From Cetobacterium sp. ZOR0034 (GTDB lineage: Bacteria; Fusobacteriota; Fusobacteriia; Fusobacteriales; Fusobacteriaceae), in contig NZ_JTLI01000029.1 of the NCBI RefSeq assembly GCF_000799075.1, positions 34,364 to 98,363 of the forward strand: a stretch of 64,000 nt of DNA, written 5' to 3'. Below are positions 4,931-63,053 of the stretch, piece by piece; positions within the stretch are counted from its first letter, which is position 1; each line of letters opens with the position of its first letter. Both the position numbers and the translations under genes were made by a program. Under the pieces are notes generated by a model. The model saw only the letters and a list, made by a program, of their open reading frames with translations, was not told where the DNA came from and did not search any database.

Positions 4931-6277
4931 TTATAAGTCAAATAATAATTTTATTGTTGTCCCAATATTTGGAGTACTCGATATTCTTATATCTAATTTT
5001 AAAATATTAACTATCCTCTTAACTATAGACATTCCAAGTCCATGTCCTGCAATCTCCTTACTTCTAGATTTGTTAGCTCTAAAAAATCTATCATATATAT
5101 GGTGTAACTCTTCTGGTGTCATTCCTATTCCTTGATCTTCTATTGTTAATTCTGCTCTGTTTTCCTCTTCATTATTTGAAAGAGATATTACAATAGGATT
5201 ATCTTTTCCGTATTTAATCGCATTTTCTAAAAGATTTTTTACCAATAACTTTATTAATGCTTCATCAGATTTTATGATTGTGTATTCTGGGTTAAATATT
5301 ATATCTGCTTTAGGATATTGATGCTTCAACCCAGATATACACCCTAAAATAATCTCTGAAAATTCAATCTCTTTTCTTTCGCTACGAATATCGGATTCTT
5401 TAGCTATAAAAAGAAGTTTTTCAATTAAAAGATTCATATTTTTAGTTTCGTCCTCTATTGAAATTAATGCTTCATTGAAAACTTCAGGATCTTTTTTTCC
5501 CCAACGTTTTATCATATCAATATAACCACTTATTATGAATAACGGCGTTTTTAATTCATGAGATGAGTTGTGAACAAATTCTATCTGTTTTTTATTTTGC
5601 TCATCAAGTCTAAGTAACATCTCCTCATAAGAATCTATAATTGTGTCAAACTCTTTAAAATAATTTGTTGGCTTTATAACTTCTAAATTTTCTAAAGTTA
5701 TATTTGAATTTAATTTTTCTAATAATGAAAGCTGTTTATCAACTTTTTTCAAGAGGCGATTAAAAGCAAAACTCGAAATTGCAACAGTTACTATAAGCCC
5801 GGCCAGAAAAATATATATCATATCAAAGAAAAACTTTTTTTCGTCTCCTAAATTTTTTACAAGTATAACTGTAAACGTTTCTCCATCTCTATTTTTCAGT
5901 TCATTTTTTAAAACTAGATAATCATACATGTGAATATTTGTAACCTTATCTTCAATCGCAAAATTTAGAATCTTTTTATCTTGAGTTTCTGAATAGATAT
6001 GATCTTTATATTTTATAGTTATCTTTAAATCTTCAAGGGATGGATTCTCAACTCTAAAAAGACTATTTACAAGGTCTCCTTCAAATATCTCCATAGATTT
6101 TGAACTTACCTCTTCTAAGATTTCATATTTCAAAAAAGCCATAGCATTTCTCATTGTATGCTTTGATGAGTTTATAAGATACTTCCCTGTTATTGAAAGG
6201 GATATTGTTAATACTGCTGCAAATAAACAGATTGTTTGAATCGAACTTCTTCTAAGAGTTCCAGAAAGTGTTTTCAA
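4931..6277 (-). CDS. Two-component sensor histidine kinase
   Basis: This 448-residue kinase has one membrane segment near residues 14-33, an extracytoplasmic sensor region of about 115 residues, and a second segment near 152-171. The HisKA domain follows with phospho-acceptor His240 in the SSHELKTP motif. The HATPase domain has N box NLLENAIKYG, G1 DQGIGM, F box YDRFFRANKS and G2 GHGLGMSIV, so it looks active. No clear HAMP domain was recognised. It starts 1 bp after the response regulator stop codon, giving a classic pair. The neighbouring envelope genes suggest it senses envelope or cation stress as PmrB does. The signal is not readable. Confidence 0.9.
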   Translation of the reverse strand: MKTLSGTLRRSSIQTICLFAAVLTISLSITGKYLINSSKHTMRNAMAFLKYEILEEVSSKSMEIFEGDLVNSLFRVENPSLEDLKITIKYKDHIYSETQDKKILNFAIEDKVTNIHMYDYLVLKNELKNRDGETFTVILVKNLGDEKKFFFDMIYIFLAGLIVTVAISSFAFNRLLKKVDKQLSLLEKLNSNITLENLEVIKPTNYFKEFDTIIDSYEEMLLRLDEQNKKQIEFVHNSSHELKTPLFIISGYIDMIKRWGKKDPEVFNEALISIEDETKNMNLLIEKLLFIAKESDIRSERKEIEFSEIILGCISGLKHQYPKADIIFNPEYTIIKSDEALIKLLVKNLLENAIKYGKDNPIVISLSNNEEENRAELTIEDQGIGMTPEELHHIYDRFFRANKSRSKEIAGHGLGMSIVKRIVNILKLDIRISSTPNIGTTIKLLFDL

Positions 6278-9159: not shown

Positions 9160-10482
9160 ATGAAAATCACAGTTATTGGAACTGGTTATGTTGGTTTAGT
9201 TCAAGGAGTTATTTTAAGTGAGTTCGGACATAAAATTATATGCTTAGATATAGACGAAAAGAAAATTGAAAATTTAAAAAATGGAATTATTCCAATATAT
9301 GAACCTGGTTTGAAAGATATTTTAGATAGAAATGTAGAAGAAGGTAGACTAAAGTTCACAACAAATAAAGAGTATGCTTTAGAAAACTCTGAAGTTATTT
9401 TTATTGCTGTTGGAACTCCGCCTGCGGATGATGGGTCTGCTGATTTAACTTATGTTTTAGATTGTGCTAAAGATATTGGAAAAAATATAAAAGATTACGT
9501 TGTTGTTGTGAATAAATCAACTGTTCCTGTTGGAACTGGAGATCTTGTTGAAGAAACTATAGAGAATGAATTGCTTAAAAGAAAGTTAAATTTAGAATTT
9601 GATGTGGTTTCAAATCCTGAATTTTTAAGAGAAGGGAAAGCTGTTAATGATTGTCTAAGACCTGATAGAGTTGTTGTTGGAACAGAAAGTAAAAAAGCTC
9701 AAGTTATAATGAAAAAAATATATGATGTTTTATATATAAATAAAACTCCATTTGTCTTTACAAATAGAAGAACTTCTGAGATGATAAAATATGCCTCTAA
9801 TGCATTCTTAGCTGTAAAAATATCTTTCATCAATGAAATTGCTTTATTAGCTGAAAAAGTTGGAGCTAACACACAAGAAATCGCTCAAGCTATGGGTATG
9901 GATGGTAGAATATCTCCTAAGTTTCTACATTGTGGACCTGGATATGGTGGGTCATGTTTCCCTAAAGATACAAAAGCTATTGTTGAGATTGGAAAAGAAT
10001 ATGGAGAGGATATGAGTGTTATCGCTGCTGCTATCTCAGCAAATGAAAAACAAAAACAAAAAATGGTTGACAAAATAATCAGAGAAATGAATGGAATCTC
10101 TGGAAAAACAATTTGTGTATTAGGATTATCATTTAAACCTGATACAGATGATGTTAGAGATGCACCAAGTATCGATATAATTAAAGGTTTGATTGAACAT
10201 GGTGCAAATATAAAAGCTTACTGTCCTAAAGGAATTGAGGAAGCTAAGTGGAGATTGAAATCTTACAATGATAAAATAAAATATTATAAAGATGAAGAGA
10301 GTTGTACTCAAGATGCAGATGCGATAGTTTTAATGACAGAATGGAATCAATTTAGAGGAATTAATCTAGAAGAGTTGAAGAATAGAATGAATGATAATTT
10401 TTATTTTGATCTAAGAAATGTACATACTAAAAATTGCAGAGTAAGATCATTATTCAAATATTATCCAGTTGGGCAAAAATAA
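9160..10482 (+). CDS. ugd: UDP-glucose 6-dehydrogenase
   Basis: This is a 440-residue enzyme of the usual length. The Rossmann motif GTGYVGLVQG is at the N-terminus, then the catalytic Lys region and VVNKSTVPVGTG. The catalytic cysteine lies in GYGGSCFPKDTKA, and the C-terminal UDP-binding domain contains GLSFKPDTDDVRDAPS. It oxidises UDP-glucose twice with NAD to UDP-glucuronate, feeding the epimerase just upstream. Translation is tightly coupled to the neighbouring genes. Confidence 0.93.
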   Translation: MKITVIGTGYVGLVQGVILSEFGHKIICLDIDEKKIENLKNGIIPIYEPGLKDILDRNVEEGRLKFTTNKEYALENSEVIFIAVGTPPADDGSADLTYVLDCAKDIGKNIKDYVVVVNKSTVPVGTGDLVEETIENELLKRKLNLEFDVVSNPEFLREGKAVNDCLRPDRVVVGTESKKAQVIMKKIYDVLYINKTPFVFTNRRTSEMIKYASNAFLAVKISFINEIALLAEKVGANTQEIAQAMGMDGRISPKFLHCGPGYGGSCFPKDTKAIVEIGKEYGEDMSVIAAAISANEKQKQKMVDKIIREMNGISGKTICVLGLSFKPDTDDVRDAPSIDIIKGLIEHGANIKAYCPKGIEEAKWRLKSYNDKIKYYKDEESCTQDADAIVLMTEWNQFRGINLEELKNRMNDNFYFDLRNVHTKNCRVRSLFKYYPVGQK

Positions 10483-10504
10483 AACTTAAACTAGAGGAGA
10501 ATTT

Positions 10505-11911
10505 ATGTATCTAAAAATTGATGAAAACAAACAAAATAGAGAACGTTATAAACTATTTTTTATAATTTATTTTTTATTTATGATATGCCTCACTTTCTTT
10601 AGAGCCCCTGATTTAAGAAATGAACTAAAATATTTTTTAATTACAGATCAAATGTTAGCAACTAAGAACTTTGTAGTTTTAGGATATTTTAATGAACTTT
10701 ATCCTGATAAGCCCCCAATTTATTTCTGGCTACTAGGAGTTATTAGAAGTATTAGCAAAGATTCTTTCTATCCATTGGCTTTAATATTTGGAAGTGTCAT
10801 TCCTGCTTGGATTACAGGAATTTTAGGTTTTAAATTATTCAAACTTTATTGGAGTGAAAAAATGGCATATTTATCTCTTGCTATTTTTATAACACTTCCA
10901 TATTTATTAGGTATCTCTTTAGTTCTTCGAATGGACTATCTAATGACTGCTTTCATTTTTGGAGCTTTATACATTTTCTTTAAATCATACTCTGAAAAAG
11001 ATAAAAAGAAAATTAGTTTTCAAAATATATTTCTAATCTATCTATTTATAGCTCTTGGAGTTCTTGTAAAAGGTGGAGCAGCTATAGTTATTACTATACT
11101 TACAATTTTAACGTTTCTATATTTAGATAGAAATTTAAAATATTTAAAAAATATAAAACCAATATTTGGATTTGGAGTTATTTTAAGTATTCTAGGCTTT
11201 TGGCTTTTACTGATCTCAACTTCATCTAATGGGAATGAGTATATATCTCTTCTATTAGGTCAAGAAACTATTGGTAGAATGGTAAAAGCTAAAACTCACA
11301 CAAGACCAATCTATTATTATATTAAAAATCTTATTTTCACGGTTTTGCCTCTAACACCATTTCTTGTGAGAGGTTCTATAAACAGTTTAAAAAATATAAA
11401 ACTTAGACATAAATGGAAACTTGTGGATAAGATATCATTAAGCTTATTTCTACCTAATTTACTATTTTTCAGTTTAATAAGTGGGAAACTAGATATCTAT
11501 TTACTTCCTCTATATTATGGAGTTGTTGTTATTGCCTTAAGATTTATAGAACACGAATGGAGTGGAACAAAAGAATCAATTTGTAAAAAAATATTATATA
11601 TCAATGTTGGGATAGGAGTTTTATGTGCTGTTGCTCTTCCTTATTATAATAAAAATTACACTATGATGGATGCTATAAAGATATTGAAAGAAAACACTCA
11701 AAATGTTTATAGCTACAGATTTAATGATGCTAAAAATATTTTAACTGAAATTAATAAAAAATCTTTAGATGATCTACCATTAGACGAGCTATACAAAATA
11801 AATGAAGGAGAACTTCTGCTAGCAAGAAAAAAATATTATAAAGATATCCCACTTCAAAACTTTAAAGAAGTATACTCTAATAACGAATATATAATTTTAA
11901 TCAGAGAATAA
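10505..11911 (+). CDS. ArnT-like membrane glycosyltransferase (second copy)
   Basis: The 468-residue polytopic protein has an early periplasmic loop with acidic DLRNELKYF and the motif LYPDKPPIYFWLLG, the ArnT/PMT signature. Many hydrophobic segments and a short soluble C-terminus follow. It is predicted to transfer the sugar from the polyprenyl-phosphate donor made by the GT2 enzyme to lipid A or core on the periplasmic side. It is only loosely similar in the signature region to the ArnT-like protein at 3336-4895, so the two may use different acceptors. It ends the operon before a strong terminator. Confidence 0.82.
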   Translation: MYLKIDENKQNRERYKLFFIIYFLFMICLTFFRAPDLRNELKYFLITDQMLATKNFVVLGYFNELYPDKPPIYFWLLGVIRSISKDSFYPLALIFGSVIPAWITGILGFKLFKLYWSEKMAYLSLAIFITLPYLLGISLVLRMDYLMTAFIFGALYIFFKSYSEKDKKKISFQNIFLIYLFIALGVLVKGGAAIVITILTILTFLYLDRNLKYLKNIKPIFGFGVILSILGFWLLLISTSSNGNEYISLLLGQETIGRMVKAKTHTRPIYYYIKNLIFTVLPLTPFLVRGSINSLKNIKLRHKWKLVDKISLSLFLPNLLFFSLISGKLDIYLLPLYYGVVVIALRFIEHEWSGTKESICKKILYINVGIGVLCAVALPYYNKNYTMMDAIKILKENTQNVYSYRFNDAKNILTEINKKSLDDLPLDELYKINEGELLLARKKYYKDIPLQNFKEVYSNNEYIILIRE

Positions 11912-14470: not shown

Positions 14471-16642
14471 ATGTTAATTAGTAATAACAAAGTTACAATG
14501 TATGAAAGTTTAAAAAACTCTATTAATTTATCCGAAGAGATAATTATTAATGTCTCTTTTATTCGTGATAGCGGATTAAAGTTACTAATTCCAGAACTTA
14601 CAAAAGCTCGTTCTGAAGGTAAGTCTATCAAGATACTCACGAGTGACTATATGAACGTTACAGAGCCTAATGCTTTATATAGATTACTCGATATTCCTGG
14701 TGTGAAAATTTTTAAAAATCCTGAAAAACCTTCATTTCATCCCAAAACTTATATTTTTAAAAATAAAAACAATGTTGAAATATACGTCGGTTCTTCAAAT
14801 ATCTCATACTCAGCTTTAATCTCTGGAGTTGAATGGTCATATCAATTTTTTGGAGATACACAAAATAGTGATATCAACAATATATTAACAGAATTTGAAG
14901 AGCTATACGAAAAAAATAGTTTCGAATTAACCTTAGATTGGCTCAGAAAATATGAAAAAAACTATAAAAAAAAGGAGTTTCAAAATTATATAGACCCTGA
15001 CTCTTCAAAGAGTTCAATTGAAGAGATCGAACCAATAAAATTTCAAGTTCCAGCTCTTTATGAGTTATCAAAAACAAGAGAGGAGGGCTTCAATAAAGCT
15101 TTAGTGATTGTTGCAACAGGACTTGGAAAAACATACCTATCGGCTTTCGATTCTAAGAATTTCAATAAAATTCTTTTTGTCGCTCATAGAGATGAGATTT
15201 TAAAAGATGCTCAAAAAACTTTTGAAACTATCTATTCAGATTCTAAAAACTACGGATTTTTCAATGGATCTACAAAAGAAACAAAAAAAGATATTATATT
15301 TGCAAGTGTTCAAACTCTTTCTAAAAATGATTATCTTTCTGAAGATTATTTCTCAAAAGACTATTTTGATTATATAGTTGTAGATGAGTTTCATCACAGT
15401 TCAGCTAAAAGTTACTCTGAAATTTTAAACTACTTTAAACCGAAATTTCTTCTTGGATTAACTGCAACTCCTGATCGTGCTGACTCTGGTGATATTTATA
15501 AGTTATGTGACTACAATATCGCTTACGAATGCGATCTCAGAGTTGCTATTAATAATGGTTGGCTAACTCCGTTTCAATACTTTGGAATTTATGATGACAC
15601 TGATTATTCACTTATTCCTTGGCGTGGAGGAAAATATGATTTAGAATCTTTAGAAAACTCATTGATTGTAGAAAAAAGAGTCCAACTAATTTTAGAAAAA
15701 TATTTGAAATATCGTAAAAAAAGTACTATCGCTTTTTGTGCTAGTGTAAAACATACTAAAGTTATGCATAACTATTTTTTAAAAAATAAAATAAAAAGCG
15801 CTATAGTTTTAGGAGAAACTTCTATTTCTGATCGACAAAATATAATTAAGAAATTTAAAGAAGGAAAATTAGATATCATATTCACTGTTGATATTTTTAA
15901 TGAGGGAATAGATATTCCATGTATAGATACAGTTTTATTTTTAAGACCTACAACTTCTTATACAATTTTCATGCAACAATTAGGTAGAGGGCTTAGAACT
16001 TATCCCAATAAACATCACTTAAGATTTCTTGATTTTGTTGGAAATTATAAAGGTTCTGAATTAAAGCCTTCATTTTTAACTGGATTCAGAAAAAATGGTA
16101 ATTTACCAAAATCCCCTTTAGATGAAAACTTTATTCTTCCAGAGGGCTGTACTGCTAACTTTGATTTTAAAATTATAGAGCACTTTGAAAATGAGGAAAA
16201 GAAAAGAGAGCCCCTTCATCAAAAAATGATTCAAGATTATCTCAATGTTAAAGATTATTTAAAGAAAACACCTACTATTATGGATATCTATACATTTGGA
16301 GAGTATCCAGTTTCTCTGTATATAAAAGAATACGAGGGTTGGTATAATTTCTTGAAAACAGTTAATGATTTAAATGAAAAAGAACTACAGTTTACTCAAA
16401 AAGCAATCGACTTTTTAAAGCTTTTAGATACAACCGAAATGACGAAATCTTACAAAATTCCATTATTTTTAAGTTTGTTTGAGGTAGAGCCTAAACGAAC
16501 TTCATCTTTTTTTAAATTTTCTTTAAAATTACATTTAACCACTTTTCATCTCCTCTACCAACTCTCACATCTGATGTTTCAAAAATATCTTCTAAATAAA
16601 AGTCACTTTTCTCAAGTAGCTTTGAAAATCTTTCTTTTGTAA
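14471..16642 (+). CDS. PLD-nuclease/SF2 helicase, C-terminus replaced in this orientation
   Basis: As read, 723 residues. Residues 1-170 form a phospholipase D-type nuclease domain with H90xK92 and GSSN(110). An SF2 helicase follows: Walker A ATGLGKT near 215-221, VVDEFHH at 303-309, LTATPDR, and motif VI QQLGRGLRT. The natural protein sequence runs to FEVEPK (residue 675, base 16495) inside a 19-bp repeat. The next 48 residues are antisense of a methyltransferase gene and look meaningless. The matching C-terminal part (110 residues after the same FEVEPK) lies inverted at 17093-17443, so flipping the segment would give a 785-residue protein. PLD-helicase proteins of this kind occur in defence or DNA-repair settings. 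The role here is inference. Confidence 0.85.
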   Translation: MLISNNKVTMYESLKNSINLSEEIIINVSFIRDSGLKLLIPELTKARSEGKSIKILTSDYMNVTEPNALYRLLDIPGVKIFKNPEKPSFHPKTYIFKNKNNVEIYVGSSNISYSALISGVEWSYQFFGDTQNSDINNILTEFEELYEKNSFELTLDWLRKYEKNYKKKEFQNYIDPDSSKSSIEEIEPIKFQVPALYELSKTREEGFNKALVIVATGLGKTYLSAFDSKNFNKILFVAHRDEILKDAQKTFETIYSDSKNYGFFNGSTKETKKDIIFASVQTLSKNDYLSEDYFSKDYFDYIVVDEFHHSSAKSYSEILNYFKPKFLLGLTATPDRADSGDIYKLCDYNIAYECDLRVAINNGWLTPFQYFGIYDDTDYSLIPWRGGKYDLESLENSLIVEKRVQLILEKYLKYRKKSTIAFCASVKHTKVMHNYFLKNKIKSAIVLGETSISDRQNIIKKFKEGKLDIIFTVDIFNEGIDIPCIDTVLFLRPTTSYTIFMQQLGRGLRTYPNKHHLRFLDFVGNYKGSELKPSFLTGFRKNGNLPKSPLDENFILPEGCTANFDFKIIEHFENEEKKREPLHQKMIQDYLNVKDYLKKTPTIMDIYTFGEYPVSLYIKEYEGWYNFLKTVNDLNEKELQFTQKAIDFLKLLDTTEMTKSYKIPLFLSLFEVEPKRTSSFFKFSLKLHLTTFHLLYQLSHLMFQKYLLNKSHFSQVALKIFLL
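16478..16496 (+). repeat. Left 19-bp inverted repeat (candidate crossover site)
   Basis: TTTGAGGTAGAGCCTAAAC, identical to the complement of 17425-17443. It is an imperfect palindrome (TTTGAGG and CCTAAAC half-sites), as serine-recombinase crossover sites usually are. It encodes FEVEPK in the helicase frame. Flanking bases do not match beyond 19 bp. Confidence 0.85.
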
Positions 16643-17093
16643 AGCATGTAAATTTTCTATCATTTTTTTCATAATCTTGACTTCCAACCTTAAAAGAAGC
16701 GTAAACAACTCCATTATTTTTAAGAGAAGTGTATATTTTATTTAAAGTTTCTAAAATCTCTTCGTAAGAAAGATGTAAAAGAGAAGCACAAGCCCACACT
16801 CCAATAAATTTATCTTTGAAATCTATATTTTTCATATCAATTACGATAACACCTTGCCCAATATATTTCGAAGCTTTCTCTGCTAAAACTGGTGATAAAT
16901 CAATTGCTGTAACTTTATACCCTAATTCTATAAAGTATTTTGAATCTCTTCCACTTCCGCAACCTAAATCTAATATTTCACCAGTTTGTTCAGATAAATT
17001 TTTAATAAAATAGTTATAGTTGTAACTCATATCCGCTTTAACTGTATCCTTGAAAAAATTTTCTGCATTTTCATTATAAAATTTAACCGACAT
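16512..17093 (-). CDS. Class I SAM-dependent methyltransferase (TehB-like) inside the invertible segment
   Basis: The 193-residue protein has SAM-binding motif ILDLGCGSGRDSKYF, acidic VTAIDLS, and a C-terminal GDEKWLNVILKK. It resembles small-molecule methyltransferases. No NPPY or similar DNA-methylase motif is seen, so it is not an evident restriction-modification partner. Its ATG overlaps the stop of the displaced helicase 3' end (TAATG) after a GGAGG site, so it belongs downstream of the helicase in the other orientation. In the present orientation no obvious promoter drives it. Confidence 0.8.
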   Translation of the reverse strand: MSVKFYNENAENFFKDTVKADMSYNYNYFIKNLSEQTGEILDLGCGSGRDSKYFIELGYKVTAIDLSPVLAEKASKYIGQGVIVIDMKNIDFKDKFIGVWACASLLHLSYEEILETLNKIYTSLKNNGVVYASFKVGSQDYEKNDRKFTCFTKERFSKLLEKSDFYLEDIFETSDVRVGRGDEKWLNVILKKI

Positions 17094-17443
17094 TATTTTT
17101 CCTCCATATACTTTCTATTAAAGTAGTTTATATTACGATAGTTTAATCTATCTAAGATGTTGTTTAATAGCATATAATTATTTTTAATTTCATTATACAA
17201 CTTTTCATTTAAATAAAAAATATTATTTTTATATTCAAAAAAGTCTTTATTTTTCTCATTTTTAGTCAAATATTTTATAGGATTATCTTTTGCTAAATTC
17301 ATAAAGCTTTTCAATTCCCAATTTTTCCAATCAGTATGTTTTTTATTATTTAAATCTTTTCCATGCAGTTTATTATCATAAAATTGTTTAAAATACTTTC
17401 CTATCTCCTCTAATTCTATACTCTGTTTAGGCTCTACCTCAAA
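17093..17443 (-). pseudogene. Displaced, inverted 3' end of the PLD-helicase gene
   Basis: Read on the minus strand from the repeat, FEVEPK continues into QSIELEEIGKYF and runs 110 residues to the stop at 17093-17095. The frame extends upstream to 17572, but those residues are antisense of the HNR-type gene and give no credible start. The segment looks like a normal C-terminus for the helicase, not a separate gene. It is silent here unless the segment inverts. Confidence 0.8.
17425..17443 (-). repeat. Right 19-bp inverted repeat (candidate crossover site)
   Basis: Perfect inverted copy of 16478-16496. On the plus strand it reads GTTTAGGCTCTACCTCAAA and leads into the open frame of the downstream HNR-type gene (residues LGSTS). 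Confidence 0.85.
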
Positions 17444-17543
17444 TGGAAACAATAAAAGACAAGTTGTAGTAGAGTCAAATGAAGAACTAATATCTTTATA
17501 CAAAAGCTTCTCTGAGAAAATTAAAGCTACAAATGGAGCTTCT

Positions 17544-18059
17544 ATGTCTGAATTAAAAAAATATGGATTCAAATACTCTTCAACAGTTTTATTGAGACGT
17601 TTTGGAAATTGGAAAACTGTAAAAGAGCTATCTGGATTTACATTTAAACTTGGTTCTATTTACTCTAAAGAGGATATCGTCAAAGCGTTACTAATAGCTC
17701 GAGCAGAGAAAGGACGAAGGCTTTCACAAAGTGAAATCAACAAAAATAAAGAGCTTCCATCTCTAGAAACAATTTTGAAATTTTTCAAGACTACTAAAAT
17801 TTCCAAAGTATGGGATGAGATTGAAAAAAACTTAGAAAAAACAACTACCGAAGGAAAAATATACTCTCTTGAGGAGATTAAAGATTTACTATATAAACAA
17901 TATTGTTTGAAAGGTTCAACTCTAACTATTTCTGAGATTGAAGTTCTCACAAAACAAGGAATTCTTCCTGGCAAAACAACAATATACAGACATTTTAAAA
18001 CATATAAAATCAAAGAGATTTGGAAAATAATCTTAGAGGAGAAATCAACACATGAATAA
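17544..18059 (+). CDS. Protein with homing-endonuclease-associated-type repeats, 5' end unclear
   Basis: 171 residues from the first ATG. Repeated modules of about 55 residues are visible: YSKEDIVKALLIARAEKGRRL...LPSLETILKFFKTTKISKVW and YSLEEIKDLLYKQY...LPGKTTIYRHFKTYKIKEIW, preceded by MSELKKYGF...TVLLRRFGNWKTVKELSGF. These resemble the DNA-binding repeats found beside homing endonucleases (pattern: acidic helix, GxxxTxxEI, SxxTxxRxFGSW). The first module actually begins upstream (from SNEELISLYKSF, near 17478), where the frame is open back to 17382 but has no ATG, GTG or TTG start. The gene therefore looks beheaded in either orientation of the neighbouring segment. It overlaps the next gene by 8 bp. 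Confidence 0.6.
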   Translation: MSELKKYGFKYSSTVLLRRFGNWKTVKELSGFTFKLGSIYSKEDIVKALLIARAEKGRRLSQSEINKNKELPSLETILKFFKTTKISKVWDEIEKNLEKTTTEGKIYSLEEIKDLLYKQYCLKGSTLTISEIEVLTKQGILPGKTTIYRHFKTYKIKEIWKIILEEKSTHE

Positions 18060-18429
18060 AATTAAACAAGTTTTAAAGAAATACTGGCCTTCAGAAAAAG
18101 TTAATACTTTCTATGAAAAATTAGAAATCTCTTTTCCAGTATATAAAATAGAGTGTCTCGAATTTTTTATAGAGGATATTTTCATTCAAAATCCAAAAGT
18201 TTCCTCTTCTGATATTTTTTCATATACAAAAAATATGGATGCCTTTCTAAATTCTGAAGAGTTTCTCATTGATTTTTTTAAGTGTACAAAAACTTTAGAG
18301 GGAGATTTAATCGCATCTAAATTAGAAAATAACCCTTTAGAAGTTGAAAGAATAGTAGAGGAACTCTTGAAAAAAGAGAAAATTAAATTCAAAGAGAATG
18401 AAAATCAATTTATTGTTTGGTACCTTTAA
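18052..18429 (+). CDS. Hypothetical protein in the helicase island
   Basis: 125 residues, mostly helical and charged, with no signal peptide, membrane segment or motif I recognise. The start overlaps the end of the HNR-type gene (ATGAATAA) and follows a TTAGAGGAG ribosome site, so the two are translationally coupled. Its place between the DNA-binding repeat protein and the recombinase suggests it is part of the same accessory unit. The function is unknown. Confidence 0.6.
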   Translation: MNKIKQVLKKYWPSEKVNTFYEKLEISFPVYKIECLEFFIEDIFIQNPKVSSSDIFSYTKNMDAFLNSEEFLIDFFKCTKTLEGDLIASKLENNPLEVERIVEELLKKEKIKFKENENQFIVWYL

Positions 18430-18513
18430 TCCTTCAATTATAATACTATTATTTAAAGCTATTATGGATTATAATATAGCTTTATTACAATAATTTATTT
18501 TAAGAGGGATTTT

Positions 18514-19077
18514 ATGAAGATTGGATATGTTCGAGTCTCAACAGTCGAACAAAATGAAAAACGACAATTAAAAAAAATGAATGAAATGAAGATTGACAAA
18601 ATATACATCGAAAAAATATCCGCTAAAGATATTAAAGGAAGAACTCAATTAATAACTATGTTAAATGAAGTTGTTGAAGGCGACACCATTTATGTCCACG
18701 ATTTTTCAAGATTGGCTAGGTCAACAAAAGATCTCCTATACATCACTGAAATTTTAGCTCAGAAAAAGGTGGCTCTTATATCTTTTAAAGAAAATATAGA
18801 TACTTCGACTGCAACTGGAAAACTAATGCTAACTATGATTGGAGCTATAAATGAGTTCGAAAGAACAAACCTTTTAGAAAGACAAAAAGAAGGGATTTTT
18901 CTAGCCAAAGAGTTAGGAAAATATAAAGGACGCAAACCGATTCCTTTTCCTGATAACTGGGAGAATATCTATGTAAAATGGAAAAATAAAGAGATATCGC
19001 CCTCATTTGCTATGGAAAATTTAAATCTAAAAAAATCTACATTTTATAAGTTAGCTAAAGAGTGGGAGAGGAAATAA
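18514..19077 (+). CDS. Serine recombinase (resolvase/DNA invertase family)
   Basis: The 187-residue size matches Hin/Gin invertases and Tn3 resolvases. The catalytic Ser9 lies in YVRVST. The arginine cluster DFSRLARSTKDL (R66, R69) and the long E helix GAINEFERTNLLERQKEGI are intact. A C-terminal helix-turn-helix (SPSFAMENLNLKKSTFYKLAKEW) binds DNA. It is the natural candidate to invert 16478-17443, since small serine recombinases commonly act on nearby inverted sites. A resolvase role on another element cannot be excluded. A GAGGG site precedes the start. Confidence 0.9.
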   Translation: MKIGYVRVSTVEQNEKRQLKKMNEMKIDKIYIEKISAKDIKGRTQLITMLNEVVEGDTIYVHDFSRLARSTKDLLYITEILAQKKVALISFKENIDTSTATGKLMLTMIGAINEFERTNLLERQKEGIFLAKELGKYKGRKPIPFPDNWENIYVKWKNKEISPSFAMENLNLKKSTFYKLAKEWERK

Positions 19078-62510: not shown

Positions 62511-63053
62511 TTAAAAACCTAATCTTTGCTTTCCTCTATAGTCATCAGCTTTCTCTTTATTGACTCTTATATATTTTTGTGTAACAGAAACACTTGAATG
62601 ATTTAGTAACTGTTGAACAAACATAATATCCTTTGTTTCATTGTATGCTAATGTTGCAAATGATTTTCTAAAACTATGTGTGCTTATAAATGTACTATCT
62701 ATATTCTCGTGATCACAAGCTTTCAATATCTGATCTTGAACCTTTCTAACAAATGCTTTAACTTCTTTTTCTTCTGAAGCAAATATATAATTATCATCTC
62801 TTGTTCTATTCTTAAAAAGATATTCTACTAACTCCATATTTATCCTTGTTATTTGTGGTTTTTTTGTCTTTTTTTCGATTATTTCCAATTTTCCAAACTG
62901 TATATCACTATATTTTAATCTAGCTATATCTTGAATTCTAAGCCCTGTATTAAGTTCAACTAAAAGGGCATTTCTTACATCTTGTTTTATTTTTTCCGAG
63001 CCTAAAATTAGGTCAATTTCATCTTTACTTATTGCTTTCGTCATTTTTCCCAT
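62511..63053 (-). CDS. Core-only tyrosine recombinase
   Basis: The 180-residue protein has the catalytic residues of the integrase family in order: Arg in NTGLRIQDIARL, His-x-x-Arg in HSFRKSF, His in LLNHSS and Tyr in QKYIRV. The usual N-terminal DNA-grasping domain is absent, so it is about half normal length. A good AAAGGGTG site precedes the start. It may act on a nearby site or be a domesticated enzyme; no inverted sites pairing with it were recognised. Confidence 0.82.
   Translation of the reverse strand: MGKMTKAISKDEIDLILGSEKIKQDVRNALLVELNTGLRIQDIARLKYSDIQFGKLEIIEKKTKKPQITRINMELVEYLFKNRTRDDNYIFASEEKEVKAFVRKVQDQILKACDHENIDSTFISTHSFRKSFATLAYNETKDIMFVQQLLNHSSVSVTQKYIRVNKEKADDYRGKQRLGF

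Follow-up and report, generated by a model that had tools for sequence, protein, structure and literature searches.

Inversion within restriction genes is well known from the hsdS loci of type I restriction systems (PMC7394358), where PsrA and its relatives (PMC7394358, PMC7096588, PMC4948785) shuffle specificity between hsdS copies. Invertons (Jiang 2019, Chanin 2024; cited in PMC11868660) are segments with short inverted repeats whose reversible inversion changes a coding sequence. One case of recombinase-driven anti-phage inversion has been described, that of PinQ on the e14 P segment, and the same source notes that recombinases frequently occur next to anti-phage genes, in a role that it describes as unknown (PMC12529663). 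Among single-chain restriction enzymes, SauUSI, a modification-dependent endonuclease of type IV, has a nuclease (residues 1-191), a coupler (618-805) and an SRA-fold recognition domain (806-953) (PMC7913695).

The locus analyzed here lies in a 64,000-nucleotide stretch of Cetobacterium sp. ZOR0034 (contig NZ_JTLI01000029.1, positions 34,364 to 98,363; hereafter the window, with positions numbered from its first base). It comprises a 966-bp segment bounded by inverted repeats, which interrupts an operon for a predicted SauUSI-like nuclease-helicase system. Because it lies backwards here while proteins of close relatives match the opposite orientation, we consider this segment likely to be a reversible on/off switch. 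The serine recombinase next to it is predicted to throw this switch. As in invertons, short inverted repeats would mediate a reversible inversion that changes coding sequence, but here the arms lie in two coding sequences, so that within a single operon two genes are broken and another is reversed by the same inversion. With the invertible hsdS loci the segment shares a restriction system, DNA inversion and a nearby recombinase; unlike them, it would act as an on/off switch on a single-chain enzyme and contains no duplicated gene. No hsdS-like gene was found among the open reading frames (ORFs) between 14471 and 19077, and an invertible type I restriction-modification system was rejected as an identity for the locus. 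The PinQ case has in common with ours a serine recombinase, a gene-spanning segment and an anti-phage effect, the Cetobacterium counterparts being putative. PinQ, however, acts from another prophage on tail-fibre genes whose product blocks adsorption, whereas the Cetobacterium segment cuts a restriction-type operon and has its candidate recombinase next to it. A SauUSI-like single-chain system switched by inversion with arms in two genes was not found in our searches of open-licence papers.

In the present orientation (OFF), the helicase ORF proceeds through FEVEPK and then into antisense residues, as the initial annotation of this sequence had stated. We inverted the segment in silico. This joined FEVEPK in frame to a 110-residue tail, giving a helicase of 785 amino acids (the ON form) whose stop overlaps the methyltransferase start (TAATG), all as proposed initially. 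The perfect 19-bp inverted repeats and the nearby serine recombinase of that annotation were likewise found in place. Its description of the segment as holding the helicase 3' end and a methyltransferase, both backwards, was right for these two genes and missed a third one that is also broken by the inversion. The frame of this third gene, which encodes a homing-endonuclease-associated repeat, presently lacks ATG, GTG or TTG before 17544. In the inverted state it acquires a GTG start inside the 3' end of the methyltransferase gene, and GAGGAG lies 7 nt upstream of this start. This start is at the same place where genomes G001 and G003 begin their copies, and the database protein P0121, a product of the third gene, starts MVKCNFKENLKKEEVRLGSTSNG. 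Depending on its direction, a single inversion repairs or breaks two genes, and it turns the methyltransferase gene round. The coordinates of all features are given in the table.

Table. Features of the invertible locus (positions in the window; SAM, S-adenosylmethionine; aa, amino acids)
Feature	Position	Strand	Description
PLD-nuclease/SF2-helicase gene, OFF form	14471-16642	+	723 aa = 675 native + 48 antisense residues
Left arm of inverted repeat	16478-16496	+	Helicase codons 670-676; sequence TTTGAGGTAGAGCCTAAAC
Invertible segment	16478-17443	.	966 bp including arms, 928 bp between arms
Detached 5' end of third gene	16497-16542	-	GTG start with GAGGAG upstream, within methyltransferase 3' end; ON coordinate 17379
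Class I SAM-dependent methyltransferase	16512-17093	-	193 aa, reversed at present; Methyltransf_25 2.4e-14
Detached helicase 3' end (110-residue tail)	17093-17424	-	From in-silico inversion; homologous tail in 18/18 relatives examined
Right arm of inverted repeat	17425-17443	-	Within third-gene linker; perfect match to left arm, inverted
Third-gene body, HNH-repeat protein	17444-18059	+	HNH_repeat 3e-9; no usual start codon before 17544 at present
Fourth gene	18052-18429	+	125 aa; overlaps third gene; no Pfam match
Small serine recombinase, candidate invertase	18514-19077	+	187 aa; Pfam Resolvase 7.7e-36

The predicted ON helicase was searched against 5.8 billion proteins, and 120 of the 7,328 matches were listed; the helicase counts below refer to these 120. 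Protein P0001 (785 aa) carries the native tail and is 95% identical across its full length to the predicted ON protein, and P0002, a 738-aa partial protein, also continues from FEVEPK into the native tail. P0006, on the other hand, has the antisense tail (OFF). Over the 675 residues that precede the junction, P0006 differs from P0001 at 3 positions and from P0002 at 4. The third gene showed the same two states, namely P0121 (226 aa) with the ON junction and 10 differences from the predicted ON protein, and P0123 (171 aa) in the OFF form. A more distant Cetobacterium lineage, about 71% identical, is represented by P0045, whose C-terminus KVDPKKTIFSSSVFTFFLVSHLTIFHSPFQL resembles the antisense tail of the window; no ON partner for it was seen among the listed matches. 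As read from these proteins, which come from different assemblies, both states occur in nature; in the window's own lineage only the OFF form was seen. The initial proposal of on/off phase variation, for which the occurrence of the other orientation in related strains had been set beforehand as a test, is thus supported by ON and OFF relatives that share at least 670 of 675 residues. It is also supported by the tail itself, present in 106 of the 120 homologues listed. The 14 others were five OFF forms, truncated proteins and four proteins with a methyltransferase C-terminus (P0091, P0092, P0094, P0095). These last four are PLD-helicases cut at about residue 630 and continued in frame into the end of a methyltransferase, as if a deletion had fused two operon genes.

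We also compared the gene order of relatives without the repeats. Twenty regions were fetched and, after leaving out G004 and G007 (right flank only), 18 loci from 17 genomes of the family remained (G001 is represented twice); genome matches below about 52% identity and degraded matches in G017 and G030 were not included. In all 18 loci, the helicase continues into its tail, and the next gene on the same strand is the methyltransferase. The "cargo" role first given to the methyltransferase therefore gave way to that of a regular second operon gene. No perfect inverted repeat longer than 15 bp (300-2,500 bp apart) touched the operon genes in any of these loci. Just past the methyltransferase, locus L065 (genome G028, contig C20) has a 20-bp perfect inverted repeat (1396-1415 and 2027-2046, about 610 bp apart), which may mark an invertible segment or be due to chance. 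The third and fourth genes are both present in four of the 18 loci (G003, both G001 contigs and G012), and the fourth gene is kept in G001, G003, G004 and G007 and weakly in G012. Because the third-gene proteins without a repeat (P0124, P0129, P0138, P0150) have a shorter N-terminal linker than P0121, the sequences suggest that the arm in this gene came in as a small insertion.

In assemblies of two relatives, contigs break at or inside an arm. In a metagenome-assembled genome sharing 97% with the window (L003; G007), contig C36 stops with the final base of the left arm and contig C59 opens with the initial base of the right arm; the part between the arms was not found in this genome. Contig C92 of G004 ends eight bases inside the right arm; only 11 arm bases can be seen in G004, and they include one difference. 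The partial proteins P0007 and P0122 stop at places corresponding to the arms. Arms of 19 bp are shorter than usual assembly k-mers and alone should not halt an assembler; the breaks are as expected if the samples hold both orientations, which would offer two competing continuations. If P0007 and G004 belong to one lineage, in which the left arm codes for FEV and the right arm reads TTTGGGGTAGA, the exchange would have taken place within GGTAGA, the centre of the window's site. A near-identical methyltransferase (P0156) comes from a 977-base contig, close to the size of the segment, as if the segment had been assembled alone. One could argue that the two orientations are themselves an assembly artefact of the repeats, since all the evidence comes from assemblies and metagenome contigs end at the repeats. 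We find this extremely unlikely: beyond the shortness of the arms, OFF forms are found on several contigs, some of them long (98,363, 75,445 and 56,117 bases), and ON forms on others.

Within the 2.74-Mb genome, the 19-bp arm has just these two matches with up to 2 mismatches allowed. The chance expectation in the window at up to 3 mismatches is 0.03. Several observations nevertheless weigh against a switch, those on the recombinase being given further below. A perfect inverted repeat of at least 19 bp within 5 kb was obtained in 3 of 60 dinucleotide shuffles of the window; by length alone such a repeat is only mildly unusual in AT-rich DNA, and the case therefore rests on the placement of the arms and on the relatives. 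The left site is symmetric at 11 of 16 dyad positions, which was not significant (0.07 in shuffles). The two orientations come from different assemblies and not from reads of one clone. Finally, the three helicase proteins of the window's own lineage (P0003-P0005) are all OFF with no ON form among the listed matches, a count that is no frequency since the protein database is clustered. This last point would be expected if the present orientation had come from a rare inversion that became fixed and simply left the operon of one lineage broken, i.e., decay and not phase variation. Other relatives did decay or lose parts, such as G017 (25 stops in the match) and the four fusion proteins above. 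Yet the detached parts (the 110-codon tail, both third-gene ends and the methyltransferase) remain open in the window, the sister lineage has ON and OFF forms at 3 differences in 675 residues, the more distant lineage also has an OFF form, and in two lineages the repeats are places where contigs break. Hence, we regard decay as highly improbable. The arm sequence varies in nature, as P0005 carries an E to D change at residue 673, within the left arm.

The enzyme interrupted by the segment resembles SauUSI over most of its length. Pfam scans of the OFF form identified ResIII (3.3e-38) and Helicase_C (4.4e-19), with HNH_repeat at residues 585-629 below the cut-off, and the best PADLOC model was mREase_IV (type IV restriction enzyme; 8e-97). 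Residues 2-634 of P0001 match residues 32-671 of the 953 of SauUSI (PDB 7clg; 3.3e-97), a match that covers the nuclease, the ATPase and the start of the coupler. The HxK motif (H90-P-K92) is invariant in 40 of 40 aligned proteins. A PLD nuclease with this motif and an SF2 ATPase are thus present in one chain, as in SauUSI-type (type IV) enzymes. The Cetobacterium enzyme differs in its length of 785 aa, in a sequence match that ends before most of the coupler and the SRA-type domain, in its 110-residue C-terminal domain and in its operon partners. No SRA family was detected in Pfam scans and the PDB sequence match ends at SauUSI residue 671, the tail itself not having been folded and searched alone. 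Phase variation is not reported for SauUSI in the portion of PMC7913695 considered here.

Structure models were compared for the two forms using the predicted local distance difference test (pLDDT). Across the 110-residue tail of the ON form, block means were 71-95 (61 for the last five residues), and the junction falls in a turn after a helix at 662-670. In the OFF form, pLDDT was below 50 over residues 669-723, with the antisense tail at 24-36, although these low values partly reflect the few sequences that align there, which counts against the contrast. The tail is thus confidently predicted by the model as a domain and the antisense tail is not. Because the tail is modelled confidently, the junction lies in a turn and the OFF end is below 50, the switch cuts at the border of a domain and likely takes away a part on which activity or the choice of target depends. 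The OFF form could instead be a working variant, such as a nuclease-helicase of other or no specificity, with both states functional. The OFF gene retains its PLD and ATPase domains and stops after only 48 added residues, and the antisense tail is similar between lineages. This similarity is explained by the tail being antisense to the methyltransferase; moreover, the OFF tail is predicted to be disordered and the partner genes would be off as well, and we judge this alternative very unlikely. The tail diverges far faster than the rest of the protein: the window and P0001 differ at 17 of 110 tail and 23 of 675 head residues, and P0001 and P0002 at 5 of 63 and 5 of 675, respectively. Among other family members, the median ratio of tail to head divergence was 1.35 over 741 pairs, all more divergent. 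This pattern would fit either a constraint that is relaxed in the OFF state or selection acting on a recognition domain.

The methyltransferase has its best family matches among small-molecule enzymes. DNA methyltransferases carry the motifs [DNS]PP[YFW] or PC, and neither of these was found in the 193-aa protein. A classical restriction-modification system with a DNA methyltransferase partner was rejected on these grounds. Defence genes adjoin the operon in four of five relatives' loci examined; out of eight neighbouring ORFs chosen from these loci, five matched defence models (type I and type II restriction genes, ZorA). The ON state may act against phages or other foreign DNA.

Three repeat-bearing loci have a visible flank (window, G007, G004), and in all of them the serine recombinase adjoins the operon. 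Of the operons without repeats, 15 show 2 kb or more of downstream sequence, and none of these has the recombinase beside it; three others did not extend far enough for a judgement. G003 and G001 carry more distant copies on the same contigs, about 53 kb off (74% identity) and about 8 kb off (38%), respectively. With 187 aa, a catalytic N-terminal domain and a short C-terminal part, the protein is similar to the small serine recombinases Hin, gamma-delta and Sin. Its best PDB matches are gamma-delta resolvase (the closest), Sin and DNA-invertase structures; because the closest is gamma-delta resolvase, sequence does not distinguish between a resolvase and an invertase. In locus L097 (G003, contig C1), a homologue of the recombinase is flanked on both sides by near-identical copies of one gene (5623-6141 and 10086-10604), which we take to be isochorismatase-like.

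The serine recombinase beside the operon is the candidate for performing the inversion. To be set on the other side are its equal resemblance to resolvases and invertases, relatives elsewhere that resemble solo or plasmid resolvases, and the 19-bp site, which was absent (at up to 4 mismatches) near eight of its homologues. The genome also has 6 Resolvase and 8 Phage_integrase loci, and another enzyme may act. One of these, on the same contig, encodes a 180-aa tyrosine recombinase (62511-63053), with no inverted repeat of note nearby. The inversion could be real and switch the operon with such an enzyme acting in trans, the serine recombinase being a mobility or resolution leftover from the arrival of an island. 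The operon and the recombinase lie beside an amidohydrolase gene that has different neighbours in G001, G003 and G008, and they may thus have arrived as an island; in the PinQ case a segment is inverted by a remote recombinase (PMC12529663). The tyrosine recombinase is found at 82-100% identity in 8 of 12 genomes of the genus, including G001, G003 and G005, whose operons have no repeats; it does not track the repeats, whereas the serine recombinase does. We consider an enzyme acting in trans rather unlikely.

Our preferred reading remains a switch thrown by the adjacent recombinase. In the ON state, the helicase (785 aa), the methyltransferase, the HNH-repeat protein and the 125-aa protein would be encoded by one operon. 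Exchange of DNA within the repeats would invert the segment, and in the resulting OFF state the helicase would lose its last 110 residues and gain 48 antisense ones, the methyltransferase would face against the operon and the HNH-repeat gene would lose its start, three genes being silenced by one event. The ON state would restrict phages or other foreign DNA, and its fitness cost would make it worthwhile to keep a fraction OFF. Switching would presumably be reversible within single clones. The fuller proposal, about evenly balanced in our judgment, is that a SauUSI-like operon has its own dedicated invertase, with one inversion, arms in two genes and three genes switched. A clone would then keep both defended and undefended cells, and the recombinase would be a regulatory part and not a sign of mobility.

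Offering a pair of 19-bp sites, a single candidate recombinase and a restriction-type enzyme cut at a domain border, the locus is a compact and directly testable case for the role of recombinases beside anti-phage genes. If true, it would represent on/off phase variation of a single-chain SauUSI-like system. Such enzymes do not require protective methylation, and what they cost the cell in DNA uptake and lysogeny may be the reason why an OFF fraction pays. Defence genes that are called broken in a genome may merely be switched off.

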